Positions 14,915-52,159 of a stretch of 64,000 nt of DNA are shown here, piece by piece. This stretch comes from Bacteroidota bacterium. GTDB lineage: Bacteria > Bacteroidota > Rhodothermia > Rhodothermales > Bin80. The DNA lies in assembly GCA_026708685.1 (NCBI GenBank), contig JAPOUL010000167.1, positions 1 to 64,000 of the forward strand. Reading direction: 5' to 3'. The notes under the pieces are model-generated. The model had not been told where the DNA came from, did no database searches, and saw nothing but the letters and a program-made list of their open reading frames with translations. The position numbers and the translations under genes were made by a program. Position 1 is the stretch's first letter; every line of letters begins with the position of its first letter.

Positions 14915-15811
14915 TCACTCTGGATCCTGCAAATGCTCATCAAAGAATGCAATGGTTCGCTCCCATGCCAGCTTCGCACCCTCTGGATCAAATCGGGGAG
15001 TGGTGTCATTATGAAATCCATGCTGCAGTCCTTCATAGATATACGCAGCATAGTCTTTCTGGTAAGCCTTTAAGGCTTCCTCGTACGCGGGCCAGCCAGC
15101 GTTCACACGTCTATCGTCCTCTGCGTAATGGAGTAGAAGAGGTGCCTGAATGTCTGGGACAAGGTCAAGATTTGGCTGTCCCCCATAAAAGGGTACAGCT
15201 GCTCCAAGATCAGCGATCCGTGTCGCCATCATATTTGAAATCCATCCACCAAAACAGAAGCCAACCACTCCCACTTTACCCGTACATCGCTCATGCGATT
15301 GTAGATAATCATGTCCTGCAATAAAATCTTCTAACATTTCAAATCGATCACGCTGGCGTTGAAGTTCACGCCCTTCGTCATCTGTTCCAGGGTAGCCACC
15401 CAATGGAGTCAGAGCATCAGGTGCAAGGCTTATATATCCAGCTAATGCAGCACGCCGGCATACATCTTCAATATGAGGATTCAAACCACGGTTTTCATGG
15501 ACAACCACTACTCCGGGCATTCGATCTGAACCCTCTTTTGGAATGCATAACAAGGCACGCATCATACCAGCCCCTTTTGGGCTTTCGTAGGTTACATACT
15601 CTTCATTTAAGCGAGAATCACCTCTACGAATCTGCTGAGCAGTGGTGTATTTGGGAGAAAGGAAGTCCAGCATCACAGAGGCCGTCATGGTGCCGACAGC
15701 ATATTTGGAAGCCCGATCTAAAAATTGGCGGCGAGAAATTTGACTATGAACATACCGGTCAAATAAGTCAAATACCTCACGGGGAAGGTCGTTCTTTGAG
15801 AGTGTTTTCAT
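14915..15811 (-). CDS. Dienelactone hydrolase family protein with Tat-like signal
   Basis: An alpha/beta-hydrolase of the dienelactone hydrolase type, probably exported. Numbered from ATG 15811, the triad is C186 in 'GFCFGG', D233 in 'YAEDDRRV' and H264 in 'LQHGFHND'. An N-terminal 'SRRQFLDRAS' followed by a hydrophobic stretch ('AVGTMTASVML') looks like a twin-arginine signal with a long n-region, so export of the folded protein to the periplasm is likely. The in-frame start at 15892 would put a second hydrophobic segment in front and overlap the divergent gene's promoter, so 15811 is preferred. The natural substrate is unknown; family members hydrolyse lactones and esters. It is divergent from the DsbA-like gene. 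Confidence 0.87.
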   Translation of the reverse strand: MKTLSKNDLPREVFDLFDRYVHSQISRRQFLDRASKYAVGTMTASVMLDFLSPKYTTAQQIRRGDSRLNEEYVTYESPKGAGMMRALLCIPKEGSDRMPGVVVVHENRGLNPHIEDVCRRAALAGYISLAPDALTPLGGYPGTDDEGRELQRQRDRFEMLEDFIAGHDYLQSHERCTGKVGVVGFCFGGWISNMMATRIADLGAAVPFYGGQPNLDLVPDIQAPLLLHYAEDDRRVNAGWPAYEEALKAYQKDYAAYIYEGLQHGFHNDTTPRFDPEGAKLAWERTIAFFDEHLQDPE

Positions 15812-15857
15812 GACTAATGAGCAACATTGAAAGATGATGGTTGTTACAAGGGGTAAA

Positions 15858-16769
15858 ATGATTCCCATGCGAACTACTATACTACTACTCAACTTTCTGG
15901 TTGCATTTTCAGTCTCTGCACAAGAGATTAGTCAGGAACAGCTTCTTGCAAATTTGCGAGTTCGTATTCCAGAGTTACAAGGTGTGGAGATGACCGTTAG
16001 TGAGCTGGAACCCAGCCCCTATGGTAATCTCAAGCAAGGTGTACTCACCATTAACGGTCAACAAACGATTCAATTTTTGCTTTCCGAAGAGCAAAGTGAA
16101 CTCATTCTTTTGGCACAAGCACCCATGGACGTTAGCCTTAGTGAATCGCAAATTGCCGGAGAACTTGAGCAACTACAAGAGCAGGAGGATCTTGTCGCAG
16201 CTGAATCACATCGTGCATTAAGTCGATTTGCCGACGGGAAACCTTTCCGAGGGGCCGCTGACGCTCCCATCACGATCTACGAGTTTAGTGATTTTCAATG
16301 TCCCTATTGTGCAAGGGCGAAGTCAGTCGTAGATGAACTCTTAAATAAGTATCCAGACGATATTCGCTTTGTATATCTTCATTTTCCTTTGGATATCCAT
16401 GACTGGGCAATGCCTGCTGCTATTGCTGCGGACTGTGCGGCTCGTCAGGATGATGATGCCTTTTGGACACTCCATGACAACTTTTTTGATTTGCAAAAGG
16501 ATATGGAGGTCACCAACCTCATTGAGAAAATGCGATCATGGTTAGAAACAGCCCCCATTGACATAGACCAGTGGGAGCAATGTGCCATTGATCCATCTTC
16601 TGCTTCTAATCAAGGTGTGGCATTAGAGATTGATATCTCCATTGCTACTGCGAAACGATTCGGCATAACGGGTACACCTGCTTTTTTTGTTAATGGACAT
16701 CTATTGACGGGGGCCCAACCAGTAGAAGCCTTTGATGCCTTGATTCAAAGAATAAAAGCCAATAGTTAA
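15858..16769 (+). CDS. DsbA-like thiol-disulfide protein (thioredoxin fold)
   Basis: A secreted thiol-disulfide oxidoreductase. It has a signal peptide ('TTILLLNFLVAFSVSAQ'), a ~100-residue N-terminal domain of unknown fold, then a DsbA/thioredoxin_4 domain with catalytic CPYC (148-151) in 'FSDFQCPYC', a helical insert, and the cis-proline region 'GITGTPAFFVNG'. Family members oxidise, reduce or isomerise disulfides in exported proteins. ATG 15858 follows an AGGGG about 5 bases upstream, which favours it over the further-upstream start at 15834; ATG 15867 is also possible. It is divergent from the dienelactone hydrolase gene and precedes the M16 protease on the same strand. Confidence 0.9.
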   Translation: MIPMRTTILLLNFLVAFSVSAQEISQEQLLANLRVRIPELQGVEMTVSELEPSPYGNLKQGVLTINGQQTIQFLLSEEQSELILLAQAPMDVSLSESQIAGELEQLQEQEDLVAAESHRALSRFADGKPFRGAADAPITIYEFSDFQCPYCARAKSVVDELLNKYPDDIRFVYLHFPLDIHDWAMPAAIAADCAARQDDDAFWTLHDNFFDLQKDMEVTNLIEKMRSWLETAPIDIDQWEQCAIDPSSASNQGVALEIDISIATAKRFGITGTPAFFVNGHLLTGAQPVEAFDALIQRIKANS

Positions 16770-16971
16770 CGGTTGACGAGTATCCGTTCAAGCATTCACA
16801 ACGAAACCAATTGACTGTTGATGTGTAACTATTGACGTATGAGGTCATCAAGTGTCATGTCCGATATACATGACAATGTCGGCGTACACCATTGTTGTAT
16901 TCCATTGCATCAATACATTATACTGCAGATCACATGGATCATGTGACTTTTCCTTATCCTCCTTTATTATC

Positions 16972-19806
16972 ATGAGTAGATCAACATTTTCATTTTCAGT
17001 TCGCCATTTTTGGTGTTTACTGGTTCTTCTTTCTTTGGTGTCCACGGCTCAGGCCCAGACAGATTTGGATCGCCCTATCCCCGTTGATAGTGCTGTGACC
17101 ATTGGGCAGCTCAACAACGGACTTACCTACTACCTTCGTGAAAATCATGAACCCGAATCTCGTCTTGAACTCCGCTTGGTGGTCAATGCTGGGAGTATTC
17201 TTGAGGACGAGGACCAGCGGGGCCTGGCTCATTTTGTAGAGCATATGCTCTTTAACGGGACGGAGCGTTATCCCAAGCAAACCCTGATTGCATTTTTACA
17301 ACGGATCGGGATGCAAATAGGACCCGACATTAACGCTTATACCAGTTTTGATGAAACGGTATATCAGTTACAGGTGCCAACCGACAGTATAGAGGTGGTT
17401 CGAAAAGCATTTGAAGTCTTGGAAGACTGGGCTGCCTATGCCACCATGAGTGATGAAGAGATTGACAATGAACGGGGGGTGATCATTGAAGAATGGCGGA
17501 CTAGACGTGGTGCCCAAGGACGGATGTTGGATCAGGTGATTCCAACTCTTTTGGGGGACTCTCGCTATGCACAACGTCTACCAATAGGAGACACTCTGGT
17601 GATCAACAACAGTTCCTACGAAACCCTAAGACGCTTCTACAGGGACTGGTATCGCCCCGACTTGATGGCCGTGGTCGTCGTTGGTTCCATGGATGTAGAA
17701 ACCATGAGATCGTTGGTAGAAGAGCATTTCTCCAATTTGCCCGAACCCGAAAATCCAACTCTCCGATCTACCTATGAAGTTCCATCTCTGGAGCCAAGAT
17801 ACAAAGTCGTTTCCGACCCAGAGTACAACTTCTTTCCAATCATCTCCATGCTGTATCGCCAGCCATTCAAGCCACAAAACACCATCGCTGATTATCGAGA
17901 AGCCGCTATTGGATTATTAGCGAGTGGAATGCTTTCTCAGCGGTTTAATGAAATTGCCCAAGATGGATCAAGAGCGCCATTTTTGATTGGTAATGCAGGT
18001 CTTCAAGATTTTGTACGGGGGGTTTCCATGTTTAATATTACAGCGTATGCCAATGAGGATAGTCTTGTCTCTGCACTACGTACACTCGTTTTGGAAAGCG
18101 AACGAGTGAAACAACACAGTTTTACCGAAGGCGAGTTCACACGATTTAAGGATTCCTTTATGCGCAGTTTGCAAGAAGCCTACAATGAAAGGGAGAATAC
18201 CCCCTCTGCCCTACATGTGTCATCCTATGTGAATCATTACCTTGAAAATGCTCCAATTCCGGGGGCGGTGAATATGTATCATCTTGCTCAGGAATTACTC
18301 CCAACAATTTCGCTTGAAGAAGTGAGCGCATTCTTGCCTAAGGCCTTAAGCAGTATGGATCGTGCCATCACCGTAGATATTCCTGAGAAGGAATCTCTAC
18401 AATGGGTGAATGAGGATCTACTGTCTTCAACCTTTGAGGAATTTGATGGAACAACGGTTGATCCCTACGTAGACACTGCTGTAGATCTTCCACTATTTGA
18501 CAAATCTCTTACTGCTTCATCCGTTACTCAAGTGGATTCCATTGCTGAGATTGGCGTCACAGAAATTCAATTGGACAACGGAATTCGAGTCGTCATGAAA
18601 CCAACTGATTTTCGGGCGGATGAGATTCAGTTCACAGCGTTCAGTACAGGCGGTACATCACTCTACGGTGATGAGGAATATCCTACCGCCTCCTTTACCT
18701 CCAGTTTGGTGAGTAGCAGTGGAGTGGGAGCGTTTGATGAAACAGCATTACAGAAAAAAATGGCGGGCAAGCGTGCGTCCGTTTCTTCCTCGATCACTGG
18801 ATTGTTTGAAGGATTTAGAGGAGAGGCCTCCCCTGATGATCTGGAGCTGTTATTCCAGTTGATTCATTTACGTGCCACCGATGCCAGACTTGATTCATCC
18901 ACCTTTCTATCGGGGATCAACATCAACCGAACGTTCATTGAGAATCGATCTAATTCTCCTGATGCGGCATTCTCGGATACCCTCCAGACCACGCTCTACA
19001 TGAACCATTCTCGATATTTGCCGACGACCATGGAAGATCTGGATTCCATAGATCCAGACCGGGTGCTTCAGATCTATAGAGATCGTTTTGCGGATATGGA
19101 TGACTTTGTGTTCGTTTTTGTAGGAGCCTTTGAGGTGGATGAGTTGACCGCACTTGCCCAGACCTATCTCGGAACTCTTCCCGTAACTGACAGGGAGGAA
19201 TCTTGGCAGGATATTGGTGTTCAAACTCCCGAGGGGAGCATCGAGAAAACGGTGTATATGGGACAGGAGCCTCAGAGTAGAGTGAGTATTGTCTTTCATG
19301 GTTCATCGGAGTACTCTCCTGTAGCAAACCATCATATGGAGTCGCTTGAAATGCTACTAGATATTCTATTGTTTGAAGAACTTCGTGAAGAAATGGGAGG
19401 GATTTATGGAGCGGGAGTCAGTGGTTCTCTCATTGCCCGCCCAGATCAGAGATACCGATTTACCATTAGTTTCCGATGCGATCCCGAGCGGGCTGAAGAG
19501 CTAACCCGTGCCGTGTTTGCAACGATTGCAGAGATCAAGGAAAATGGAATTGATGACGACTATATTCTCAGAGTTCAAGAGCAACAGCGTCAAGCTCGTA
19601 CCGTTGCTTTGGAAAGCAACGGTTTTTGGATTAGTGCACTTCGGTCTACCTACTACCCAGACAGTATGGTAGATGCCGCGGAGATTGTTCGTCGTTACGA
19701 GGAGATGGTTAATGCTCTCACGGCAACTGATTTACAGCAAGCGACGACCAACTGGTTGACAGATCGCTATGTACAGGTGACCCTATATCCTGAGCAGTCA
19801 GAATAA
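16972..19806 (+). CDS. M16 family zinc metalloprotease (insulinase-like), secreted
   Basis: A 944-residue periplasmic or surface peptidase. The inverted zinc motif HFVEH lies at residues 87-91 (H87 and H91 ligands, E90 catalytic), with the third ligand E167 in 'NERGVIIEEWR' at the expected ~76-residue spacing. Two M16 modules are present: an active N-terminal half and an inactive C-terminal half starting near residue 520 ('EIQLDNGIRVVMKPTDF'), as in pitrilysin-type proteins. ATG 16972 gives a clear signal peptide ('LLVLLSLVSTAQAQ'); the open frame extends upstream to 16852 but lacks signal-peptide logic. The gene converges with the minus-strand chaperone operon, leaving 73 bases between the stops. 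Confidence 0.92.
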   Translation: MSRSTFSFSVRHFWCLLVLLSLVSTAQAQTDLDRPIPVDSAVTIGQLNNGLTYYLRENHEPESRLELRLVVNAGSILEDEDQRGLAHFVEHMLFNGTERYPKQTLIAFLQRIGMQIGPDINAYTSFDETVYQLQVPTDSIEVVRKAFEVLEDWAAYATMSDEEIDNERGVIIEEWRTRRGAQGRMLDQVIPTLLGDSRYAQRLPIGDTLVINNSSYETLRRFYRDWYRPDLMAVVVVGSMDVETMRSLVEEHFSNLPEPENPTLRSTYEVPSLEPRYKVVSDPEYNFFPIISMLYRQPFKPQNTIADYREAAIGLLASGMLSQRFNEIAQDGSRAPFLIGNAGLQDFVRGVSMFNITAYANEDSLVSALRTLVLESERVKQHSFTEGEFTRFKDSFMRSLQEAYNERENTPSALHVSSYVNHYLENAPIPGAVNMYHLAQELLPTISLEEVSAFLPKALSSMDRAITVDIPEKESLQWVNEDLLSSTFEEFDGTTVDPYVDTAVDLPLFDKSLTASSVTQVDSIAEIGVTEIQLDNGIRVVMKPTDFRADEIQFTAFSTGGTSLYGDEEYPTASFTSSLVSSSGVGAFDETALQKKMAGKRASVSSSITGLFEGFRGEASPDDLELLFQLIHLRATDARLDSSTFLSGININRTFIENRSNSPDAAFSDTLQTTLYMNHSRYLPTTMEDLDSIDPDRVLQIYRDRFADMDDFVFVFVGAFEVDELTALAQTYLGTLPVTDREESWQDIGVQTPEGSIEKTVYMGQEPQSRVSIVFHGSSEYSPVANHHMESLEMLLDILLFEELREEMGGIYGAGVSGSLIARPDQRYRFTISFRCDPERAEELTRAVFATIAEIKENGIDDDYILRVQEQQRQARTVALESNGFWISALRSTYYPDSMVDAAEIVRRYEEMVNALTATDLQQATTNWLTDRYVQVTLYPEQSE

Positions 19807-19879
19807 ATGTGGTCCCCATTGTGATACAACCATCAATCTCACAGACCTAAAAATCTCTTGTATGTCCCGCCCCTGAATC

Positions 19880-21100
19880 CTAGAAGAGTTCTAATTGATT
19901 AGGATCTTCATGGGGCAGGGGTGCTGGTGGCTTTTTGGTGGCCACTTGCTTGGAATCCTTTTTGATCTGGGGAGGCTTTGGGAGAGAATACTGCTTGTAG
20001 GCCTTGCCGATCATATTGAGGATTTTTTGAGCATTCTGGCGTGGCATTCCCTCTGGAATGGTATTCAATCGGCCGTTCCATTTTTTGTATTCGTGTCGCA
20101 GAAAGTTTCTGATTCGATCTTTAGGCCACTGGGGATCAATGCAGAGAAGTTCCAGAACATGATCTGGAACCATGTCTGGGAGGTTAAGATCAAGGAGGGT
20201 TTGATCTTTCACCTTATCAATTATCTTGTCTTCAAGGATAGATTTCATCACGATGAGTCGAAGGAGGCGAAGCTGATTGAGGTCTGGTATTCCATTGGCA
20301 GACATGACCTTGTAGCAGAAATGCAAGGCCTCAATCCATTGGGGTGGACCAGCTTTTCGTCTCAGACTTCTGGCGAGTTCATGAGGATCAAGATCATTCT
20401 CGCGTACCTTTTTAAGTGCACGATTCAGCATGCTCTTGTAGGTAGGAAGACGTTTTTTTTGAGTCAGGCCATCGTAGTTTGACATGGAGTTCTCAATCCA
20501 TGCAGTCAACTGGTGATTCACCGTTTCCTCATCAACGGAATCATAGATTCCATCGGCGATCGCAACGGCCAGCCCAAGCTTGAGGATGATTGATTCAATA
20601 CGCCGTCGGGCTTTTCCAAACTTTACGTAGCCGAAAGGGATCTTATTGCAGACAAAGGTAACCTGACCCTCCCAAAACAATGCGGGATCATCACAAATTA
20701 AATCTCCCCCCTGAGCGAAGACATCCGCATCTGCATCCACAAGTCGCACAGCTGCCACAATGGTTCTTTTTCCGGTAAAGGGACCAGCAAGAACCTCTTC
20801 GGGGATGACAGCTATCGGTGTCCACTGATGAAGCCGTTTCGAAGAATCATCATAATAACCAATCTGGATACGAGATTCAAATGCAGCTGACAACATTTCC
20901 TGAAATGTTTTTTCAACCGAAAGGAGTGGATGAACGCCGCGGTCAGCAGAATCAAAGAGAGATACCTGACATTCTATGTTATGATCTAGCGAAGTAGGAG
21001 GCAAGACTCCCTTCATGTCAATTTTGATGATCTTGCTTCCCTGAAACATCACGGTTTTCACTCGTAGTTGAAGGGGAGGCGTTTTGCGTGTTTTTGGCAT
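19880..21100 (-). CDS. TerB-domain protein with degenerate J-like domain (Hsp70 partner candidate)
   Basis: A 406-residue cytoplasmic protein. Residues 1-160 form a beta-rich domain I do not recognise. Residues ~166-290 look like TerB: 'LKLGLAVAIADGIYDSVDEE' and, after a linker, 'ALHFCYKVMSANGIPD' resemble the paired acidic-turn helices of that fold. Residues 313-371 resemble a J-domain: 'LELLCIDPQWPKDRIRNFL' and 'EYKKWNG' match helices I-II, and 'QKILNMIGKAYKQY' matches helix III. The HPD loop that stimulates Hsp70 ATPase is replaced by about 'NTI'. TerB followed by J is the order found in DjlA-type co-chaperones. The protein ends in QLELF, a match to the sliding-clamp-binding pentapeptide. 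It lies 321 bases downstream of the Hsp70 gene on the same strand. Domain calls are by eye. Confidence 0.6.
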   Translation of the reverse strand: MPKTRKTPPLQLRVKTVMFQGSKIIKIDMKGVLPPTSLDHNIECQVSLFDSADRGVHPLLSVEKTFQEMLSAAFESRIQIGYYDDSSKRLHQWTPIAVIPEEVLAGPFTGKRTIVAAVRLVDADADVFAQGGDLICDDPALFWEGQVTFVCNKIPFGYVKFGKARRRIESIILKLGLAVAIADGIYDSVDEETVNHQLTAWIENSMSNYDGLTQKKRLPTYKSMLNRALKKVRENDLDPHELARSLRRKAGPPQWIEALHFCYKVMSANGIPDLNQLRLLRLIVMKSILEDKIIDKVKDQTLLDLNLPDMVPDHVLELLCIDPQWPKDRIRNFLRHEYKKWNGRLNTIPEGMPRQNAQKILNMIGKAYKQYSLPKPPQIKKDSKQVATKKPPAPLPHEDPNQLELF

Positions 21101-21421
21101 GGGTGTTCAAATTGGATCAACGGGTGACAGGAATTAAAGAAAACATGGAGAAGGTAAAGAGGGAATCCTATGGCATGACATTATGATTGCACAAAGAGAT
21201 CCATCAACAGAGAATTCTACAGTACGCAGCAGCATGGAGTAGGTATTGGGATCAAAATTAAACGTGTACATGATCGTCACGAGATGGATGCTTTCAAGAG
21301 CAAACTTGTTTACGAGATGCGGGATGAGGAGGATATAGGCTGATCATGGATGGAGCGTTTCGAACGCTGTACACTGATCGTTAGATATAATCAGTTCAGA
21401 TCTTGGGGCTTTCCAATGATC
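21101..21421. other. Gap inside the chaperone cluster, with a short open stretch
   Basis: This 321-base gap separates the Hsp70 gene from the TerB/J-like gene. On the plus strand, 21180-21343 is open for about 54 codons without an ATG near its start ('KIKRVHDRHEMDAFKSK...'). It reads like coding sequence and may be a remnant; I cannot name it. No terminator was recognised, so read-through from Hsp70 into the TerB/J gene remains possible. Confidence 0.35.
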
Positions 21422-22927
21422 CTAGTCATGGCTCTTCATCAGGTCAATCGTAAATTCTTTTTCCTTGCCCGAGTCAACATCCTTGAAATAACAGTGCATA
21501 ATCTGATTGATATCATACTTGTAGGTCACCGAAATTTCCTGTCCAGCGGGTCTGCCGGGTGGTAAATCAAGACTTCCCTCACCGATGACTTTAACGAAAT
21601 TTGAATTGAACTCCTCTTCTTCGGTGTCACATTCGGTAATGGTGCAGTCAATGCGTGTCTGATCATCAGCGACCGTGCGATACGATTCCGTCTTGGAGCA
21701 TGGAATGGGTGTCCCTTTTTTGATGATGATGGAATTCACTTCGGGCGCTTCTCCCGAAGGATTCATAAGCCAGTAGAGATCGCCTAAGGCTTTTGTTCCA
21801 AAATGTTTGTTGGTTACATCCTGGACACTCATTTCTGTTGCTGACATCATTTGGAGTTTTGTCAGTACGTCATGATCGGTGCGATGGCCTGCGTATAATG
21901 CCGCTCCGAGTGCTACGACTTCATCCACATTTGCAATACTTAACGGCTCGGTTCCAAACACATTCTTGACCATCTGGTGAATGGCAGGAATTCTTGTACT
22001 TCCTCCCGCCAGAATCACTCCGTTGATGTGGTCGTGGTCTATAGAACCATCTTCAAGAGCATTTTCACAGCATAGCTCAATCTGAGTCACATAGTTGGAT
22101 ATTTGTGATTCAAACTCATCCCGGGTAACTTCAATCACTTTACCCTTGACAAAAATACTGACTTTTTCTCGGCGGGAAAGGGAGTGTTTCATATCCTGAA
22201 TTCGATGCAGGTCAAGTCCTTCATGACTCAGGTTCTGTTCCGATAGGATGTCTCCCGTCATCTTCTCATACTTGTCCTTGACAAGCATTTGCAGAGCCTC
22301 ATCAAAATCGACCCCGCCCAGTCTTGCAATACCATCACTCCAGATGACATCAACAGATTTACCATCAAACTCGGCGATAGTAATATCAAATGTTCCGCCG
22401 CCCAAGTCAAAAACGGCATATACTCCAGCCTGTGTGAGTTTACCCGAATAGGCATAATAGAGGGCAGCAGCTGTAGGTTCATTGATAATATTGGCGAGAT
22501 CCAATCCTGCCGCCTCTGACGCATCAATGGTGGCCTGTCTGGCTTCATTACTAAAATTTGCAGGGACGGTAATGACGACGGGAGCTAAGGGTCCAAGTGC
22601 CTTTTTCGTATAATCACCCAGGCATTTGAGGACATGACTGCTCAGTTCTACTGGGGTGAGTGTATGAGGCCCAATGGGATAGGTTTTTGACGTTCCCATT
22701 TCCCGCTTGAATCGTGCTGCGGAGGATTTATGCTCCTGGCCATGATCTGCTGACCATTGTCCCCACGCATCAACCCCGACGCGCCATTCGTCATGAATGA
22801 GGGCAACACAGGATGGCAGGAGATATTTTCCATCTGCATCGGGCACCATCACGGGTCTCCCAAATTCGTCAAATTGTGCAACAGCTGAGTACGTTGTACC
22901 CAGATCAATTCCGATCACTGAACTCAT
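21422..22927 (-). CDS. Lidless DnaK-like Hsp70
   Basis: A 501-residue Hsp70-family ATPase. The nucleotide-binding domain (1-~350) is intact: phosphate-1 'GIDLGTTYSAVA' (6-17), phosphate-2 'FDLGGGTFDIT' (173-183) and adenosine motif 'ILAGGSTRIPA' (305-315). The substrate-binding beta-sandwich follows (~395-495: 'IIIKKGTPIPCSKTESY', 'DLPPGRPAGQEISVTY', 'DSGKEKEFTID'). The protein then stops, lacking the ~110-residue helical lid of DnaK (usual length ~640). The DnaK-type linker (VLLLD) is not conserved here ('KLQMMSA'). It is therefore a specialised Hsp70, not the housekeeping DnaK. Its ATG lies 23 bases inside the 3' end of the LRR/GrpE-like gene, so the two are translationally coupled. Confidence 0.9.
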   Translation of the reverse strand: MSSVIGIDLGTTYSAVAQFDEFGRPVMVPDADGKYLLPSCVALIHDEWRVGVDAWGQWSADHGQEHKSSAARFKREMGTSKTYPIGPHTLTPVELSSHVLKCLGDYTKKALGPLAPVVITVPANFSNEARQATIDASEAAGLDLANIINEPTAAALYYAYSGKLTQAGVYAVFDLGGGTFDITIAEFDGKSVDVIWSDGIARLGGVDFDEALQMLVKDKYEKMTGDILSEQNLSHEGLDLHRIQDMKHSLSRREKVSIFVKGKVIEVTRDEFESQISNYVTQIELCCENALEDGSIDHDHINGVILAGGSTRIPAIHQMVKNVFGTEPLSIANVDEVVALGAALYAGHRTDHDVLTKLQMMSATEMSVQDVTNKHFGTKALGDLYWLMNPSGEAPEVNSIIIKKGTPIPCSKTESYRTVADDQTRIDCTITECDTEEEEFNSNFVKVIGEGSLDLPPGRPAGQEISVTYKYDINQIMHCYFKDVDSGKEKEFTIDLMKSHD

Positions 22928-24863
22928 GTAAGCTATGTTTTAATTGAAATCTATATATGGCAACGCGTGCGGGGATCACCACTTCTTTTTCTCGTCCTCC
23001 TTCTATATAGTAGCCAGGTTCCAGCACTTCGGCAATTTGGCAGTCATGCTCTTCAATCATGGTATCAATAATCTTCGGATAGTCCGAAACACCGAAGGCC
23101 GTACGATAGTCACTGCCCACTTCTGGGGTATAGGACTGAACATTGCACTCTAAAAGTGCATCTTCTAAAAGAGACTGGATGGATTCAAGTGGTGAGGAAG
23201 GGTCATTGGATTCCTGCAAGAAGTATTCAACAGCCTGATTCACTCGGATAAACCGTGCCACAAATTTACGGTAGATGGTGTTGTCATAACCATCATGAAG
23301 ACGTTTGATCTGCTGATCACGATCATCTAAGGCATCACGCAGACTTTTGATTGAGGAAGAAAAATCTCGAGTCACTTCACTTTGCTGTAGACTTTTTTCA
23401 GCTAACTCGTTGATGGAATGAGCCGATTGAATCAGATAGTCAATACGCTGTTCAATCACTCCTAATCGATCAGAGTCCTGCGATGCATCGGGTTCCTTCG
23501 GTTCAGGCTGACCAGAGCGCCTCATGCCCATGATGACTACCACAAGGATAGCTCCGGCTCCAATAATGCCAAGTAACAGGAGGGCTGCAACGATCCACAG
23601 GGGGAGTGCGATGGATGGATCAGAGGACGAAAGAGCAGACGGGCTTTCGGATAGAGTGTTACAGGAAACGATGCCAGATGTGGTAGGGATCTGGCCCAGC
23701 CACTGTCCTACGGAATCAAGATCTGGAGCACACAACTGTGTTTTACTGATCGAAAATACTTTCAGGTTGTTGAGCTGGGTCAACTCTGCTGGAAGAGTGT
23801 CCTTTAGTGGATTTCCATCCAAATGCAGTGCCTCAAGTTGATGCAGGGAACCGAGTTGAGGGGGCAGGTGCCCGCTCAGGTGGTTTCGTTCAAGATTCAA
23901 GCTGCGAACGGATCCATCCCTGATGTCAATTCCAAACCACTCCCCGACATCCACTGCCCTTGGATGCAGATCAAAAGTCCAACCACGACTGTTGATCCAT
24001 TCAGCTCCATTGGTCGATTGATAGAGACTTTGAAGTGCAGACAGTTCACCCGATGGAAGACAGGCGTATTCTGAATGGACTGTCTGGAATCCAAGGAGAT
24101 GGTGTTCATCAGCAGTTGCATCAATACACAGATTCGTGCCTTCTACATTAATATCCATTGATGGACGCAGTGGAGTTGACGAAAGGGTTAATACTCCCGA
24201 CAACCCCGGATTATTCCCAAGCCACAAGATTCCCAGATGTGGGAGGGTTGTGATTCCTTCATCAATGGAACCGGATAGATTGTTATAGTGCAACCAGATC
24301 CCCTTTAATGGAGTCAATCGCCCCAGGCTTTCAGGGATACTGCCTTCCAACTGGTTACTGCGGAGGTTCAAATATTCAAGGTTCACTAGGTTTCCAATCT
24401 CGTCAGGAAGTGCTCCAGAGAGGCGGTTTTGCTGAAGACGCAGTTTGACCAATGACGTAAGAGATTGAATCCAAGGACCGATAGATCCTGACAGGTTATT
24501 TTCCTGAAGATCAAGGACTCGGAGCTTGGTGAATTGCCCAAGTTCTCGTGGAAGTGTTCCAGTCAGTCCATTGTTGGATAGATCGATTTCAGTTACATGT
24601 CCGTCAGCAGTACGAAGTCCATACCATGTAGATATGCTGTCGAGTGGAGGGGCAGACACAAGGGTCACATCCCAGTTGGACTGTTGAGTCCAATTGGGGC
24701 CACCAGTAGAGTCATAAAGGATTTTCAGGGCCTCCCACTCCGACCGAGGAGTCATCACTTCCGTGGACTGAGCAATGCTCACAGAGGGAATGATCGATAA
24801 GATCAGAAGCCCAACAAGAGCGATACAGTCAGTCAAACGAGATCCGATAGATCTACAGATCAT
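22905..24863 (-). CDS. LRR receptor-like membrane protein with cytoplasmic GrpE-like domain
   Basis: Numbered from ATG 24863 (652 residues). There is a signal peptide (~1-32), then an extracytoplasmic domain of plant-type leucine-rich repeats in two blocks ('LSNNGLTGTLPRELGQFTKL', 'NNLSGSI', later 'LERNHLSGHLPPQLGSL'). One membrane helix follows (~422-444, 'ALLLLGIIGAGAILVVVIMG'), then a basic stop-transfer, a long coiled coil (~465-540), and a C-terminal domain resembling GrpE. The GrpE-like points are a helical region 'KFVARFIRVNQAVEYFL' and the final beta piece 'IAEVLEPGYYIEGG'...'VVIPARVAIYR', matching the 'GY.LNGR.IRPA.V.V' signature of nucleotide-exchange factors. The next gene is an Hsp70, overlapping by 23 bases. 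I infer an external sensor whose cytoplasmic part controls nucleotide exchange on that Hsp70. Confidence 0.75.
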   Translation of the reverse strand: MICRSIGSRLTDCIALVGLLILSIIPSVSIAQSTEVMTPRSEWEALKILYDSTGGPNWTQQSNWDVTLVSAPPLDSISTWYGLRTADGHVTEIDLSNNGLTGTLPRELGQFTKLRVLDLQENNLSGSIGPWIQSLTSLVKLRLQQNRLSGALPDEIGNLVNLEYLNLRSNQLEGSIPESLGRLTPLKGIWLHYNNLSGSIDEGITTLPHLGILWLGNNPGLSGVLTLSSTPLRPSMDINVEGTNLCIDATADEHHLLGFQTVHSEYACLPSGELSALQSLYQSTNGAEWINSRGWTFDLHPRAVDVGEWFGIDIRDGSVRSLNLERNHLSGHLPPQLGSLHQLEALHLDGNPLKDTLPAELTQLNNLKVFSISKTQLCAPDLDSVGQWLGQIPTTSGIVSCNTLSESPSALSSSDPSIALPLWIVAALLLLGIIGAGAILVVVIMGMRRSGQPEPKEPDASQDSDRLGVIEQRIDYLIQSAHSINELAEKSLQQSEVTRDFSSSIKSLRDALDDRDQQIKRLHDGYDNTIYRKFVARFIRVNQAVEYFLQESNDPSSPLESIQSLLEDALLECNVQSYTPEVGSDYRTAFGVSDYPKIIDTMIEEHDCQIAEVLEPGYYIEGGREKEVVIPARVAIYRFQLKHSLHEFSDRN

Positions 24864-25207
24864 TAGGTGATCCAAGATGAAAGCATCCAGAGATGTTTTG
24901 AAAATGAGTCCGAATATTTGGGGTCAATGCAACGTCATCAATGACTGCTGAAAACCACATCAATAGTGTGCTTAATTCCATGATCTGATCCTCCTCAACA
25001 ATACAGCAAAATCTGGGGCACACCATGGTATTTTAAAAGCGGGTTAAACCATCCTACCGCTGAATTGTGCACAGCAATGACTCCCAAACTGGATGATTTC
25101 CAAGAATCAATCATGTTTTTTGGCTTGACGATTCAAGATGTAACAACTTAGAAACAAATTTCGTAAGGAAAGAGGTCCATCGTGCTATCCTGATTCCTCC
25201 CAATCCT
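24864..25207. other. Divergent intergenic region with promoters for both sides
   Basis: This 344-base region separates the minus-strand LRR/GrpE-Hsp70-TerB cluster from the plus-strand DUF5916 gene, so it must hold promoters for both. No convincing TTTG/TAnnTTTG pair or operator palindrome was picked out by eye, and no gene or RNA was recognised. Confidence 0.5.
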
Positions 25208-27526
25208 ATGAAATTTGTTGCGTTGCTCCCCATCGGTGTCGTATGTTGCTGTCTCATCCAACCAGCTGAATCTCAGTCCTTAAATGGTTCTATGGACGAG
25301 GGAGGCATTGAATCCGATTTTCCGCCTTCTGGGGAATTTCGCCCAAACATTCAACCATCGCATACGGTTGCCCAGGCTACGGGGACCATTGATGTTGATG
25401 GTAATCTGGATGACGATGGATGGGATGGAATCCGACCATTAGGAAATTTTTCAGAGGTTGTTCCGAACGATATGACTCGTCCTCCGGTCCGAATGAAAGC
25501 GATGATGACCTATGATCAGGATTATTTGTATGCTGCTGTGGTGGTCTATGATGATCCAAAACTGATTCGGGCCAACCTCAGCGATCGTGATGAAATTTGG
25601 CAGGATGATTATGCTGGAATTGCTCTTGATCCAAATCGTGATGGTCAGGGAATCTATTTTATTGCATCCAACCCATTGGGCATTCAGGGAGATTCATTTC
25701 TTACACTCAATAATGAGGATGAGGGGTTTGATCTATTCTATCGATCCAGTGGCCAGATTACCGAAGATGGGTATCAGATTGAGTTTGCGATTCCTTTCAA
25801 GAGTCTGAGGTTTCCGAATGTGGATGTCCAGACTTGGGGAGCAACGCTGTGGGTGACCCGACCAAGGGAAAGCAGAAGTCAGTATTCTTGGGCGGCCATC
25901 AGTCAGGACAACCCCTGCATGAGTTGTCAACTCGGCGAAATCAACGGCATAGATGGTGTAAAATCTGGACGCAATCTTGAAATTCTTCCGTCACTGACGG
26001 GTGGTGGGGTTGGCTCTCTCCGGGATCCAAAGGTCCCATCGTCAGGTTTTGAACAGGAGAGGATGACCGTTGACCCCTCGCTGAATGTCAAGTATGGGAT
26101 CACCTCTGATTTAACCGCCGATGTAACGGTGAATCCAGATTTTAGCCAGATTGAAGCGGATGAAGCCCAGATTGATGTTAATTCTACGTTTGCGTTGTCT
26201 TTTGATGAACGAAGGCCATTTTTTCAGGAAGGTTCGGGATTATTTAATACTGAAATTCAAACGGTCTATACACGATCCATCAATGATCCAATTGCAGCGG
26301 CCAAGCTGACAGGACGTTTTGGCTCCGTAGATGTAGCCTATATTGGGGCACGGGATAATCACACCCCGTTGCTCCTTCCGTTTGAAGAACAAAGCCGACT
26401 GCTTCAGGGTGGACGCAGTTTCTCAAATATACTCAGGGTGATAAGAAATTTTGACAATCATTCATTTATAGGTGCATTGATAACGGACCGAAGACTGGAT
26501 GAGGGAGGATCGGGTTCCACAATCAGCATAGATGCCAGTGCGAGGTTTCTGCAGCAGTACAGGATCAGTGGGCAGATGGTCTACAGCCATCATCAGGAAC
26601 CGATCCATGAAGAAATGGATGATCAGATAGGAGAACTCTATTTTGATAATCAGAAGTATACCGGGTTTCTGGATGGAGAGTCATTCAGTGGGTATGCTAC
26701 CAGTGTAGAGTTGGATCGGGATGCCAGATACTGGTCCTTTTCAGCCGGCTATGAGTCCATCAGCCCTACCTTCCGAGCAGATAACGGATTTGTTCGCCAG
26801 AATAACAACCAGCGAGTTTTTCTCTGGCAGGGAGTAACGATGTATCCCGAAAAGGTCATTCCCTTTGTGGAACGGATCCGGCCCAACCTGGTTGTGGGGA
26901 GCAATTGGAATTTTGATGGACTGCAAAAGAGTTTTTTCTTTCGTCCATCCATCTATTTTCAGCTGAAGCAGCAGACGAATCTGCAAATCAACTGGTGGTA
27001 CAGAAATGAGGATTTTTCAGGGGTACAGTTTAACGGGATGACTGGGGTGAGTGGGTTTGTTTCCAGCAACTTCAGTCGTACGCTCAATCTTGGTTTGAAT
27101 ATCAGTGTTGGAGAATCCATTGCACGATTTTTGGATGAACCAGAAATTGGAAACAGTTTTGAATTGAATGCGTGGGGAACCCTTCGACCAACGAATCGCA
27201 TGTCGATTCGCCCTCAATTCTCGTATTCAAAACTTTCGGATCAACAGACCAGCGAAGAATTCTTCAGTGGGTATATTGTTCGTACGAGAGTCAAATATCA
27301 GTTTACCCGCCACCTGTTTTTACGTACGGTCGTGCAGTATAGCGATTTTTCCAAGAAGTTGGAAATAGATCCACTGTTGACCTACAAGCTCAACGCCTTT
27401 ACTGCAATGCATGTTGGGTCCACACACGATCTAGACCAGTTCACGCGGACGCAGGGTCCAACAAAGTACTTCAGACAGAGTCACAGGCAAATTTTCTTCA
27501 AGTTTCAGTATTTTTTCCGTAGGTAG
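25208..27526 (+). CDS. DUF5916 outer-membrane protein with CBM9-like N-terminus
   Basis: A 772-residue protein with a signal peptide (~1-22, 'VVCCCLIQPAESQ'). A carbohydrate-binding CBM9-like domain (~50-230) follows: 'GTIDVDGNLDDDGWDGI', 'YDQDYLYAAVVVYDD' and 'YQIEFAIPFKSLRF' are its typical strands. The C-terminal ~500 residues are a predicted outer-membrane beta-barrel (DUF5916) with alternating aromatic strands, ending 'FFKFQYFFRR'. 'NPDFSQIEADEAQIDVN' and 'FDERRPFFQEGSGLF' are characteristic DUF5916 signatures. The family function is not established; a role in glycan binding or transport is inferred from the CBM9-like domain. It precedes two Gfo/Idh oxidoreductases, consistent with sugar metabolism. 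Confidence 0.88.
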   Translation: MKFVALLPIGVVCCCLIQPAESQSLNGSMDEGGIESDFPPSGEFRPNIQPSHTVAQATGTIDVDGNLDDDGWDGIRPLGNFSEVVPNDMTRPPVRMKAMMTYDQDYLYAAVVVYDDPKLIRANLSDRDEIWQDDYAGIALDPNRDGQGIYFIASNPLGIQGDSFLTLNNEDEGFDLFYRSSGQITEDGYQIEFAIPFKSLRFPNVDVQTWGATLWVTRPRESRSQYSWAAISQDNPCMSCQLGEINGIDGVKSGRNLEILPSLTGGGVGSLRDPKVPSSGFEQERMTVDPSLNVKYGITSDLTADVTVNPDFSQIEADEAQIDVNSTFALSFDERRPFFQEGSGLFNTEIQTVYTRSINDPIAAAKLTGRFGSVDVAYIGARDNHTPLLLPFEEQSRLLQGGRSFSNILRVIRNFDNHSFIGALITDRRLDEGGSGSTISIDASARFLQQYRISGQMVYSHHQEPIHEEMDDQIGELYFDNQKYTGFLDGESFSGYATSVELDRDARYWSFSAGYESISPTFRADNGFVRQNNNQRVFLWQGVTMYPEKVIPFVERIRPNLVVGSNWNFDGLQKSFFFRPSIYFQLKQQTNLQINWWYRNEDFSGVQFNGMTGVSGFVSSNFSRTLNLGLNISVGESIARFLDEPEIGNSFELNAWGTLRPTNRMSIRPQFSYSKLSDQQTSEEFFSGYIVRTRVKYQFTRHLFLRTVVQYSDFSKKLEIDPLLTYKLNAFTAMHVGSTHDLDQFTRTQGPTKYFRQSHRQIFFKFQYFFRR

Positions 27527-27584
27527 TTGTTTTAAATGGAAATGAGTCGTAAATTAGTCGGAGCAAATCATTCATTTACGACTT

Positions 27585-28907
27585 ATGAAACAACTTACCA
27601 ATCGAAGATCCTTTCTCAAAACCGCTTCCGCTGGTGTAGCGGGAGCTGCCTTCCTACGATCTGCACACGGATTAGCCTCTCCGACGAATCACTTGAATGT
27701 GGCCGTTATGGGGGTGCACAATCGTGGTGGTGGACTTGCCTCTGCTTTCGCACGTGCCGAAGGTTGTGAAGTCACCCATATCTGTGATGTAGACGACCGA
27801 GCAGTTGCCAAGACGGTCAAAGATGTTGCAGAGATTACTGGTAGTAATCCGCCGATGGGAGTGGTTGACTTTCGCGAAGCACTAGACAACCCTGATGTTG
27901 ACATTCTTGTGATTGCTGGCCCCGATCATTGGCATGCACCGGCTGCGATCATGGCCTTACAGGCTGGAAAACATGTCTATGTAGAAAAGCCAGGTAGCCA
28001 CAATCCTCGTGAAGGTGAGATGTTGATTGAGGCACAGCAATACTACAACTTAAAGGTTCAGATGGGCAATCAACAACGCTCTTCTGAAGAATCTTCCCAA
28101 GTCATTGAAGCGATCAGAGAAGGGATTATTGGACGGCCTTATTATGCAAGAGCATGGTACGCTAATAGTCGAGGATCCATTGGTACAGGACAGTCTGCTC
28201 CAGTTCCTGACTGGCTCAATTATGATCTATGGCAGGGACCAGCTCCCCGGATGCCCTACATGGATAACCGGATTCACTATAACTGGCACTGGTTCTGGCA
28301 TTGGGGCACTGGTGAAATCTGCAACAATGGAACGCATGAAATCGATGTGTGCCGTTGGGCTCTTGGAGTAGATTATCCGATGAGAGTTCGCTCCTCTGGT
28401 GGACGCTATCATTTCAAGGATGACTGGGAGTTCTACGATACTCAGATCGCGTGCTATGACTTTGAAGGGGACAAAACCATCACTTGGGATGGTCGCAGTT
28501 GCAATGCCCGTCTGGTTGAAGGGCGTGGACGTGGAGCCTCCATTCATGGTGAGTATGGAACGGCCATCATTGACCGTAATGGATACGTTGTCTATGATCA
28601 GGATAACAATGAAATCTGGAAGCGCTCTCGAACTTCTGGGGAAGCGACGATGGATATTCGTGGGGGAGGAGGACTGACGGATCGCCATATTGTCAATATG
28701 ATGCAGGCGATTCGTGACGGGGAACCCCTCAACTCTCCCATCAGCGATGGGCAAAAGACGACACTGCTCTGCCATTTAGGAAACATCGCTCAAAAAACCG
28801 GGCGTACGCTCATGTGTAACCCAGAAAATGGACATATTCTCAATGATGAAGAGGCCATGAAGATGTGGGAACGTGAATACGAGCCTGGATGGGAAATCAA
28901 AATCTAA
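27585..28907 (+). CDS. Gfo/Idh/MocA family oxidoreductase, Tat-exported (first of two)
   Basis: An NAD(P)-dependent dehydrogenase of the glucose-fructose oxidoreductase/inositol dehydrogenase family. The twin-arginine signal is 'NRRSFLKTASAGVAGAAFL', so export in folded form to the periplasm is expected. The Rossmann domain begins 'LNVAVMGVHNRGGGLASAF' (~37-55), with 'HICDVDD' closing beta-2 and the catalytic EKP at 134-136 ('VYVEKPGSHN'). The C-terminal alpha/beta domain contains 'GTGEICNNGTHEIDVCRWAL', with the His-Asp pair usual near the active site. The sugar substrate is unknown. The next gene encodes a paralog 12 bases downstream, so the two are probably co-transcribed. Confidence 0.9.
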   Translation: MKQLTNRRSFLKTASAGVAGAAFLRSAHGLASPTNHLNVAVMGVHNRGGGLASAFARAEGCEVTHICDVDDRAVAKTVKDVAEITGSNPPMGVVDFREALDNPDVDILVIAGPDHWHAPAAIMALQAGKHVYVEKPGSHNPREGEMLIEAQQYYNLKVQMGNQQRSSEESSQVIEAIREGIIGRPYYARAWYANSRGSIGTGQSAPVPDWLNYDLWQGPAPRMPYMDNRIHYNWHWFWHWGTGEICNNGTHEIDVCRWALGVDYPMRVRSSGGRYHFKDDWEFYDTQIACYDFEGDKTITWDGRSCNARLVEGRGRGASIHGEYGTAIIDRNGYVVYDQDNNEIWKRSRTSGEATMDIRGGGGLTDRHIVNMMQAIRDGEPLNSPISDGQKTTLLCHLGNIAQKTGRTLMCNPENGHILNDEEAMKMWEREYEPGWEIKI

Positions 28908-39902: not shown

Positions 39903-41579
39903 ATGATACGCACAAAAGATCAAGTTGACTCATTCACATGCGATGAGATGCTCATTCGTGAAACGACATTTGTGATTGTAGATCTGGAAACCACTGGCAC
40001 GAGTGCGACCGCGAACCGAATCATAGAGATCGGAGCCGTCAAGGTGCGTGCCAACACGATTGAGGATACGTTCCAAACTCTGATTGACCCAAACTGTGCT
40101 ATCCCAAGAGCGATCACACGCATCACCGGGATCACAACAGCAGATGTTTATGGGGAGCCTCAAGCCAGTGAAGTGTTGCAAGCGTTTATTGATTTCGTGG
40201 GAGACGATATTTTTGTTGCTCACAACTGCTCTTTTGACTGGAACTTCATTCAGGAAGAGATACAGCGGGCCCAGCTTCCCACACTTAACAATAAAAAACT
40301 TTGTACTTTACGTCTTGCCCGTAGACTGCTTTCAGGATTGCGATCAAGGAGTTTGGGTAGCCTCATCACATTTTTTGATATTGACACCGAGAGCCGACAT
40401 CGTGCACTCAGTGATGCATTGGCTACCCATGAGGTATTCCTGCATCTCCTTGATCGATTGGAAAAACAGCATGATATAGTAGAACTGAACGCACTTCTTC
40501 AGTTTCAACATCAACGCTATGCAAAGCAAAAAGAAAATCCAAGAATTACTCATATTCGCCAGCAGATCCTTCCTACGTTGCCTGATTCACCAGGAGTCTA
40601 TCAAATGCTTGGAAAGAAGGATCATCTGCTGTATGTAGGCAAAGCACGAGTTTTGAGCGACAGAGTGCACAGCTATTTTTCGGGTATAGAAGGGCATCAG
40701 GAACACATACGAAGAATGGTGAGGCAGGTGGTTGATGTACGGTGCATTCCGACATCGACTGAACTGGAAGCATTGCTCCTAGAATCCCAGCTCATCAAGG
40801 AGCATGCACCTCCATTTAACAAGGCCGGACGGTCCTATCGCAAGAGGCCATTCTTGCGTTTGGGGGATATCTCAAATTCAACATGGTTGACGCTCGTGGA
40901 GCATATTCGGCCAGACGGTGCCTACCATTATGGGCCCATGGGTGGACGGAAGGAAGCCATTCATGTAGCACGAGCTCTGATATCAATCTATGGAGATCCA
41001 ACAGATGCTTTTCAGTCGTTCACGCGAGATGGGGTGGGGGTCAGCTCATCTCAGATTGGAGGGAAACTGAAAAAGGATGCGTTTGAGCAGGTGAAAAGTT
41101 TTTTGGAGGGAAGGGATCCAACTGCCTGTAGCATCTTAAAATCCGAAATCCAGAAAGCATCCCATGCCCAAGAGTATGAAATGGCCGCTCAAATGCGTGA
41201 TTGGCTCACCGCTCTGGAAACGGTGGAGTCCCGTCCGCACTTTCTTCGGACTCCATTGTTAAACCGAACCGGTGCGATTTTGTATCAAGAACAAGAAACA
41301 TTTGAGATTCATTTAATGGTTTGTGGTGCTCCGGTAGCTCATGTGCTGTACCCCTGTAAGGAACCAGATCTGCAAGATGCAACGACAAAATTCCATCAAT
41401 ATGTACTTCATCCACCGACTCGTATTACGATGCAACATGTTGACAGGACGAGTATTTTAGGGGCATGGATGTTTAAGCAACAAGATCACATTAGCGTACT
41501 TCCTCTGAGCGAAGATATCCAAAGTTCAGCATTTGATGCAGCTTTACATTCTCATTTGGAGAGATGGTCTCCCCAATAA
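39903..41579 (+). CDS. DnaQ-like 3'-5' exonuclease fused to UvrC-type GIY-YIG nuclease
   Basis: A 558-residue two-nuclease protein likely involved in DNA repair. Residues ~20-185 form a DEDDh exonuclease: D27 and E29 in 'VIVDLETTG', D112 in 'FVAHNCSFDWNF', and H167 and D172 in 'HRALSDAL'. Residues ~225-310 form a GIY-YIG domain ('SPGVYQMLGKKDHLLYVGKA', R/E motif in 'ELEALLLESQLIKEHAPPFN') as in UvrC/Cho. A UVR-like helical hairpin ('LKSEIQKASHAQEYEMAAQM', ~410-440) follows. No UvrC RNase-H-like C-terminal nuclease is seen. This fused architecture is known from several bacterial phyla. ATG 39903 is 36 bases from the divergent mdh start; ATG 39948 is an alternative. Confidence 0.9.
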   Translation: MIRTKDQVDSFTCDEMLIRETTFVIVDLETTGTSATANRIIEIGAVKVRANTIEDTFQTLIDPNCAIPRAITRITGITTADVYGEPQASEVLQAFIDFVGDDIFVAHNCSFDWNFIQEEIQRAQLPTLNNKKLCTLRLARRLLSGLRSRSLGSLITFFDIDTESRHRALSDALATHEVFLHLLDRLEKQHDIVELNALLQFQHQRYAKQKENPRITHIRQQILPTLPDSPGVYQMLGKKDHLLYVGKARVLSDRVHSYFSGIEGHQEHIRRMVRQVVDVRCIPTSTELEALLLESQLIKEHAPPFNKAGRSYRKRPFLRLGDISNSTWLTLVEHIRPDGAYHYGPMGGRKEAIHVARALISIYGDPTDAFQSFTRDGVGVSSSQIGGKLKKDAFEQVKSFLEGRDPTACSILKSEIQKASHAQEYEMAAQMRDWLTALETVESRPHFLRTPLLNRTGAILYQEQETFEIHLMVCGAPVAHVLYPCKEPDLQDATTKFHQYVLHPPTRITMQHVDRTSILGAWMFKQQDHISVLPLSEDIQSSAFDAALHSHLERWSPQ

Positions 41580-51263: not shown

Positions 51264-51728
51264 ATGGCTTTTCCACGTATCGCGGAGTTGCTTGATACAA
51301 AAGATCGCACTCCCAAAGAAACAAACGAACTTACTGAACTGATTTTTCAACAAGCGTCTTCAGATGCTATTACACGCATTGATGCTCTCAAAGAGATTCT
51401 TCTTATAGAAATCCGTGCTGTGAATGATCGTTTTGACGGAACGAATGACCGTTTTGACGGAACGAATGACCGTTTTGACGGAGTCAATGAACGTTTTGAG
51501 ATGACGAATGAGCGTATTGAGATGACGAATGAGCGTATTGACGCCCTCAAAGAAATTCTTCTCACAGAAATTCGTGCTACGAATGAGCGCATTGACGGAA
51601 CCAATCGACGCGTTGACGCAATCCAAAAAACACATCGTTGGATTATTGGTCTTCTTGTGGCTATTGGTACGGGTGGATTGGGTGCCTTGGGAATCCTTGT
51701 TCGTATCTGGTTGAGCATACCAGTCTAA
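51264..51728 (+). CDS. Tandem-repeat coiled-coil protein with C-terminal membrane helix
   Basis: 154 residues. A helical head ('MAFPRIAELLDTKDRTPKET') is followed by heptad-rich coiled coil built from seven-residue units 'NDRFDGT'/'NERIEMT'/'NERIDAL', with two longer internal copies of 'RIDALKEILLxEIRA'. A C-terminal membrane helix ('WIIGLLVAIGTGGLGALGILV') follows. This layout resembles repeat-containing coiled-coil membrane proteins such as Borrelia Bdr or phage XhlA-type proteins; it is a similarity of form only. The 21-base repeat behind it predicts length variation. A decayed duplicate follows at 51820-52159. Function unknown; it may be an accessory protein of the neighbouring methyltransferase/DUF262 pair. 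Confidence 0.78.
   Translation: MAFPRIAELLDTKDRTPKETNELTELIFQQASSDAITRIDALKEILLIEIRAVNDRFDGTNDRFDGTNDRFDGVNERFEMTNERIEMTNERIDALKEILLTEIRATNERIDGTNRRVDAIQKTHRWIIGLLVAIGTGGLGALGILVRIWLSIPV
51423..51527 (+). repeat. 21-bp tandem repeat, five units
   Basis: Five in-frame 21-base units of the form AATGACCGTTTTGACGGAACG run from 51423 to 51527 (units 2 and 3 nearly identical, 4 and 5 diverged), and further degenerate units occur at 51528-51545 and from 51581. Each encodes one coiled-coil heptad. Such arrays change copy number by slippage without breaking the frame. Confidence 0.88.
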
Positions 51729-51819: not shown

Positions 51820-52159
51820 ATGTCATTTGCTCTTATTGTGGAGTTGCCTGATACGCACAGTCCTAAGTATGGGAAATGAGCGAACTCACTGAGTTGAATT
51901 TGAACAAGCGTATTCATACGCCATCGCACGCATCGTTGCAATGAACGAACGTATTGACGCACTTGAAGAAGAGGTTCTCGCAGAAATCCGTGGAACACAG
52001 GAACTTCTTGACGGAATAAACCAACATATAGAAGGAATAATTCAACTTCTTGACGGAATGATTCAACGTCTTGAGCGAATAAATAATATGCTACGTTGGC
52101 TGATTGGTTTGGCAGCATCTGCTGCCATCTGTACTGTTGCAATCCATGTTCTTATGTAG
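51820..52159 (+). pseudogene. Decayed tandem duplicate of the coiled-coil protein gene
   Basis: ATG 51820 begins 'MSFALIVELPDT', parallel to 'MAFPRIAELLDT' of the upstream gene, then meets a stop (TGA at 51877). After a frame change the homology continues ('EFEQAYSYAIARIVAMNERIDALEEEVLAEIR' versus 'LIFQQASSDAITRIDALKEILLIEIR'). A 72-codon frame from ATG 51941 remains open through the coiled coil and the membrane helix ('MLRWLIGLAASAAICTVAIHVLM') and might still be translated. The 5' half is clearly broken, so I call the whole a pseudogene with a possibly expressed tail. Confidence 0.7.

Follow-up and report, generated by a model that had tools for sequence, protein, structure and literature searches.

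A candidate receptor-controlled Hsp70 cassette with a GrpE-fold cytosolic tail in Rhodothermales and other bacteria

Three adjacent genes in a 64,000-nucleotide stretch of a Bacteroidota genome (order Rhodothermales, Bin80; GCA_026708685.1, contig JAPOUL010000167.1, positions 1 to 64,000; hereafter, the window) encode the putative parts of a divergent Hsp70 machine. An initial annotation, made from the sequence alone, had described them as minus-strand genes for a leucine-rich repeat (LRR) protein with a single transmembrane (TM) helix and a GrpE-like tail (gene 1), a lidless Hsp70 (gene 2), and a TerB/J-like protein (gene 3, here TJ), and the reading frames bear this out (Table 1). The tail of the gene 1 protein is predicted to adopt the GrpE fold, the gene order recurs in other genomes, and the Hsp70s form a clade of their own that has lost residues used by DnaK for canonical co-chaperone contacts. 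In our judgement, the prospects are evenly balanced that the genes form a membrane-receptor-controlled Hsp70 cassette, for which we infer binding among the products, signalling and its direction, a client, and a role for the TJ tail. Literature searches returned no earlier description of the three-gene set, although it may be mentioned in older surveys of Ter systems or bacterial J-proteins.

Read from its ATG, which is the better start because a good signal peptide results, the gene 1 protein comprises an LRR ectodomain (PF00560, 3.6e-21), one TM helix, and a cytosolic part of ~205 residues. The LRR domain had initially been called external; the single membrane helix stands and a signal peptide precedes the repeats, whereas "external" should be replaced by periplasmic because Rhodothermales are expected to be diderm. 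The ectodomain evolves faster than the GrpE-like tail, with 53%–54% versus 63%–65% identity to the proteins of two relatives (G009 and G004). LRR matches in NCBIfam, to Xop effectors and internalin, fell far under the cut-off and were rejected as repeat similarity.

Structural comparison of the cytosolic tail with GrpE, on which the original proposal depended, gave a clear result. An AlphaFold2 (AF2) model built on a 12-sequence alignment (pLDDT 77) has a long helix, a pair of shorter ones, and a beta wing of six strands, and ranks 1–8 of a Foldseek search of the PDB were all GrpE (1dkg_A, E 1.1e-5, probability 1.00). VIA-align matched the tail to GrpEL1 over 149 residues with Z 11.0 and a root-mean-square deviation (rmsd) of 8.8, unrelated rows reaching at most 7.4; the large rmsd in the GrpE comparisons (8–13 Å) is expected because the long helix is bent. 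Pfam found no GrpE match (PF01025, gathering cut-off 25.8 bits) in the window domain. A paralogue encoded elsewhere in this genome (G000:C18, 50% identity) scored 26.9 bits (23.3 with the whole protein scanned), and planctomycete homologues also passed the cut-off (L055, 31.1 bits; L088 and L090, 26.0–26.1 bits). Reciprocally, the tail profile recovered GrpE-sized proteins (196–211 residues) elsewhere in the phylum, aligned over the C-terminal half of GrpE. An hhalign comparison with six near-identical GrpEs aligned the beta wing alone (probability 14%), a low score attributable to a template that is too shallow. The GrpE fold is thus a solid assignment, settled by predicted structure and reciprocal hidden Markov model searches together.

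The second gene is an Hsp70 (PF00012, 9.8e-77) whose match stops at profile position 500 of 599, with 136 C-terminal DnaK residues and hence the helical lid (SBD-alpha) missing; all members of the family are 496–519 residues long. Its start at 22927, and with it the 23-base overlap with gene 1 that had been noted initially, is real because MSSVIGIDLGTT is an Hsp70 N-terminus. Residues were compared in an alignment with E. coli DnaK, HscA, and HscC, the DnaK sequence having been verified at 23 known residues. The full set of ATPase residues (D8, K70, E171, D194, T199, and D201) is present in 13 of 13 checked cassette Hsp70s, and T199 and E171 are retained in all 16. Nevertheless, R167 and Q378, which in DnaK touch the aspartate of the HPD motif (PMC8215388, PMC13012618), are replaced in all 16 cassette Hsp70s (by N/Y/G/A and Y/F/K/H, respectively), unlike in HscA and HscC, which retain R and Q. 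Of the two salt bridges in the DnaK cleft, none of the 16 retains both, and the interdomain linker LLL (L390–L392) is altered; in the window Hsp70, both pairs (K55-E267 and R56-E264), R167, Q378, the linker LLL, and D477 are all unconserved. Prokaryotic Hsp70s are usually given as three types, namely DnaK, HscA, and HscC (PMC8215388); in a tree, the 16 cassette Hsp70s formed one clade apart from all three (local support 1.0), and the NCBIfam HscA score was 266 bits against a cut-off of 709. Canonical dnaK and hrcA-grpE-dnaJ sit elsewhere in the same genome, so the cassette is an extra, dedicated machine.

No family was matched by Pfam, NCBIfam, and PADLOC scans of TJ. Its AF2 model (pLDDT 84) consists of a beta-sandwich, a helical TerB part, J-like helices (315–318, 327–345, and 352–372), and a disordered tail. 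The TerB assignment made initially was upheld by PF05099 matches in homologues (33–41 bits, cut-off 24.4), the window protein itself having none, and by hhalign to DjlA-type TerB (probability 98%). For the J-like part, hhalign to J domains gave a probability of 31% and Pfam no match (PF00226); in profile alignments it is collinear with TerB-J proteins, and a fold search with the whole model, which barely probed this part, returned only generic beta-sandwich and TerB matches. The position of the HPD motif reads NTIPEG in the window. Among members, HPD was found only in two planctomycete proteins (L086, 7911-9137; L090, 6151-7299), where it closes helix II (e.g., KWNTRVTHPD), with one residue more than in DnaJ; in most others there are remnants or nothing. 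The partner Hsp70s of these two HPD-bearing proteins nonetheless lack R167. On the simplest reading, the J-like part is probably a J-derived domain whose trigger has been lost.

Relatives G009 and G004 carry two TerB/J genes after the Hsp70 gene, namely TJ1, which in G004 has an N-terminal TM helix, and a soluble TJ2, which ends in QLxLF. The C-terminus reads QLELF in the window and QLDLF or QLKLF in orthologues (L014, L015, L016, and L017), in each case after a variable disordered linker. QLxLF within the last 14 residues occurs in these five TJ2 orthologues and in no other of 371 distinct complete open reading frames (ORFs) of the fetched DNA; neither TJ1 nor the same-genome paralogue has it, and it is missing from every other phylum. 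As QLDLF is the canonical clamp-binding motif of Pol Y1 (PMC11381352), the tail is a candidate sliding-clamp-binding motif, although it may alternatively serve as a tethered Hsp70 substrate.

Conservation of the neighbourhood, anticipated in the initial annotation, was found in the same genome, in Rhodothermales relatives, and in other phyla, within a sample of draft metagenome assemblies with few homologues. A second, diverged LRR-GrpE/Hsp70/TerB-J cassette lies in the same genome (G000:C18, L013:6397-11052), and the third gene is present in four of nine congeners examined and in one other genus of the family, adjoined by the LRR-GrpE-like and Hsp70 genes wherever the contig allows, except in the second G005 copy. 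GrpE-like and Hsp70 genes overlap or sit at most 56 bases apart at the 13 loci tabulated. More distant loci, one of which (L053) is interrupted by unread bases, were found in alpha- and gammaproteobacterial, Sulfurospirillaceae, Phycisphaerae/Phycisphaerales, Sedimentisphaerales, and Kuenenia assemblies, in the order GrpE-like gene, gene for a ~500-residue Hsp70, and TerB/J gene, the last mostly with an N-terminal TM helix. Gene-order recurrence across the second locus, the relatives, and four phyla exceeds chance, and the three proteins also vary together in their pairwise identities (Spearman 0.48–0.83, with no control for the species tree). The cassette is nonetheless rare: of the genomes sampled, 1 of 398 in Pseudomonadota and 7 of 294 in Planctomycetota carried it (each sample including its centre genome), while in Campylobacterota a full-length match was confined to the centre genome, 21 other weak matches resembling ordinary TerB-J proteins (four read as alignments). 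Plasmid searches for the cassette gave no match; a single-sequence contig scan with P0003 likewise gave none, whereas an alignment-based contig scan did find matches.

The system is wider than its LRR version, the LRR being one ectodomain among several. Cassettes in Pseudomonadota, Campylobacterota, and Planctomycetota have no LRR. In several planctomycete GrpE-like proteins, two TM helices flank a conserved ~120-residue segment with the GrpE domain after it, and alphaproteobacterial proteins likewise place a non-LRR segment between two TM helices ahead of the GrpE domain. Thus, the receptor-like layout is a general one, with the LRR as the ectodomain in Rhodothermales. Outside Rhodothermales, an M48 peptidase gene takes fourth place in three loci (L050, 9067-10158; L051, 3598-4680; L052, 3416-4540) and lies beside the cassette in another (L087, 5785-6924); the peptidase is a candidate client or output.

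Under the receptor-controlled reading, the gene 1 protein would sit in the inner membrane with its LRR ectodomain in the periplasm and its GrpE-fold domain in the cytosol, where the latter would bind the dedicated lidless Hsp70 and hold it at the membrane. Ectodomain changes would be passed through the TM helix to the long GrpE-type helices and alter the position or nucleotide state of the Hsp70, which would then work on a cytosolic client. The TerB/J-like protein would act as an adaptor positioning the Hsp70, rather than as a standard HPD-type ATPase trigger; it is predicted to be membrane-anchored in most relatives, and here soluble with a possible clamp-binding tail. We tentatively propose, as a broader claim in which we place less trust, that these proteins represent a further prokaryotic Hsp70 type beside DnaK, HscA, and HscC, sporadic in at least four phyla, which no longer makes either canonical co-chaperone contact and is instead under the control of a TM receptor whose ectodomains are exchangeable and whose output has the GrpE fold, and that in Rhodothermales an LRR receptor and a J-like adaptor able to reach the DNA sliding clamp would link a periplasmic signal to cytosolic chaperone action. 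If true, an exchange-factor fold serving as the intracellular output of a receptor would constitute a new mode of signalling, tying Hsp70 control covalently to a periplasmic sensor, and the set suggests an undescribed bacterial coupling of an outside signal to an Hsp70 chaperone. The clade-wide loss of R167 and Q378, with loss of HPD in most J-like partners, would be a natural experiment in driving an Hsp70 without a J-domain trigger.

Several observations weigh against receptor control. The GrpE-signature loop (DnaK 290-295) is deleted or shortened in all 16 cassette Hsp70s and present in five DnaKs of the same genome and its relatives. HscA and HscC likewise have no such signature, and neither is believed to depend on GrpE (PMC8215388). 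The GrpE-like domain may therefore fail to exchange nucleotide, or even to bind. Most of the LRR part is gone in G005 (a 418-residue protein), and in a second cassette of that genome (G005:C27; L020:411-500, 2698-2757) the GrpE-like gene survives only as fragments beside retained Hsp70 and TerB/J genes, so neither part is indispensable in every lineage.

The main rival, which we regard as somewhat unlikely, is a constitutive membrane-tethered chaperone station, in which the GrpE-like protein would be a mere anchor concentrating Hsp70, clients would be folded or handed over (for example, to the M48 peptidase), and the LRR and other ectodomains would be structural or adhesive and carry no signal. 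The peptidase genes beside four distant cassettes would suit such a station, as would the N-terminal TM helices on many TerB/J proteins and the relatives with a small or no recognisable ectodomain (none in L052). However, a signal peptide and a 390-residue LRR ectodomain, as conserved as noted above among Rhodothermales, would be costly for an anchor, and the planctomycete ectodomain is conserved too.

Improbable, in our view, is the mechanism suggested initially, in which an external ligand would gate a canonical GrpE exchange factor acting on a DnaK-like Hsp70, with the J-protein triggering hydrolysis. The GrpE fold with its beta wing and the complete catalytic residues of the Hsp70 fit this textbook route, but the absence of the signature loop and of at least one cleft salt bridge, the further unconserved contact and linker residues of the window Hsp70, and the J-like domain without HPD weaken it, because both canonical interfaces are altered.

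Slightly more doubtful still is a defence or conflict module akin to Hsp70/GrpE/DnaJ-containing conflict systems or TerB-linked systems, a kinship that the initial annotation had raised. It gains from the patchy distribution within the genus and across phyla and from likeness to gene sets in which Hsp70, GrpE, and FnIII-DnaJ adjoin GAP1-N2 GTPases (PMC7159879). However, no GTPase, nuclease, or STAND partner adjoins the cassette, the PADLOC matches were all weak and partial (19 and 10 bits), and the locus looks like a stable chromosomal site because related neighbours recur around it in G004, G005, and G002. Least probable, by a small further step, is replication-linked quality control, in which TJ would recruit Hsp70 to the sliding clamp and the LRR-GrpE protein couple envelope state to replisome remodelling: the clamp-like motif does end five of five TJ2 proteins past linkers that can hardly be aligned, but it is confined to them, and so short a hydrophobic peptide could equally be a tethered substrate.

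The cassette shares with canonical DnaK-DnaJ-GrpE the same three parts by fold (Hsp70 nucleotide-binding and beta substrate-binding domains, GrpE fold, and J-like domain), and differs in that a TM protein carries its GrpE-like part as a cytosolic tail, its Hsp70 lacks the lid, the GrpE signature, and R167/Q378, and its J-like part lacks HPD. Yeast Snl1, a membrane-anchored BAG-domain exchange factor, is likewise tethered by one TM helix, although its BAG fold is unrelated, it has no comparable ectodomain, and it is eukaryotic. DjlA, a TerB-J co-chaperone of the membrane that works with DnaK and GrpE to activate Rcs (PMC11709261), resembles most TJ homologues in its order of TM helix, TerB, and J; the TJ profile is collinear with TerB-J proteins of Campylobacterota across TerB and on into J helix II, and had no match to E. 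coli DjlA itself. Unlike DjlA, TJ has an extra beta-sandwich ahead of TerB, has lost HPD in the window lineage, and has its own dedicated Hsp70. HscC, with tail-anchored DjlB and DjlC, is also a specialised Hsp70, with the plasma membrane as its presumed site of action (PMC8215388), and it shares with the cassette Hsp70s a lobe I deletion and the absent GrpE signature; however, the latter form a separate clade, whereas HscC retains the lid and R167/Q378 and has no GrpE partner. The GAP1-N2 GTPase systems (PMC7159879) likewise place Hsp70, GrpE, and a beta-sandwich/J protein in one neighbourhood, but there the GrpE is not described as a TM receptor and TerB is not mentioned, and the cassette has no GTPase.

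Table 1. Features of the Hsp70 cassette in the window
Feature	Position	Strand	Basis or remark
Gene 1, LRR-TM-GrpE-like putative receptor	22905..24875	minus	TTG ORF; ATG start at 24863 preferred
Signal peptide MICRSIGSRLTDCIALVGLLILSIIPSVSIA, followed by Q	24771..24863	minus	sequence; hydrophobic stretch
Periplasmic ectodomain: two N-cap-like segments, LRR repeats after each	23610..24770	minus	Pfam LRR_1/LRR_4/LRR_8
Single TM helix PLWIVAALLLLGIIGAGAILVVVIM, then GMRR (positive inside)	23529..23603	minus	sequence
Cytosolic GrpE-like domain: one long and two shorter helices, beta wing of six strands	22905..23531	minus	AF2, Foldseek
Gene 2, cassette Hsp70, 501 residues	21422..22927	minus	PF00012; clade support 1.0
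Nucleotide-binding domain	21806..22927	minus	retains catalytic residues; no GrpE-signature loop and no R167/Q378 equivalents
Beta substrate-binding domain, without the helical lid	21422..21760	minus	Pfam, DnaK alignment
321-bp gap between genes 2 and 3	21101..21421		further TJ gene here in some relatives
Gene 3, beta-sandwich/TerB/J-like protein TJ, 406 residues, soluble, clamp-motif-like tail	19880..21100	minus	
N-terminal beta-sandwich, residues 10-154	20639..21073	minus	AF2; generic beta-sandwich matches only, Z up to 8.0
TerB-fold helical domain, residues 158-302	20195..20629	minus	Z 9.3 to 2h5n; hhalign; PF05099 in homologues
J-like domain, residues 312-374, without HPD, KWNGRLNTIPEG instead	19979..20167	minus	AF2 helices
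Disordered C-terminal tail ending QLELF	19883..19972 (QLELF 19883-19897)	minus	pLDDT ~40; sliding-clamp-motif-like

Because gene 3 starts 321 bases past gene 2, the two are not tightly linked in the window; a search of the gap for a remnant of a second TJ gene found none. An Rfam scan of 15000-28000 gave no match, and promoter and terminator scans returned chance-level results only. Genes adjoining the cassette encode a DsbA-type thioredoxin, an M16 peptidase, and oxidoreductase-like proteins. Elsewhere in the window, an exonuclease is fused to a GIY-YIG nuclease domain (39903-41579), and a 2054-residue protein carries Calx-beta and fibronectin-like domains (54904-61068). An EcoRI-type adenine methyltransferase is encoded at 52298-53245 (PF13651, 9.6e-129), with 21-bp tandem repeats near its gene (51422-51543 and 52002-52082) and, 3 bases downstream, a 391-residue ORF that is possibly its restriction partner.

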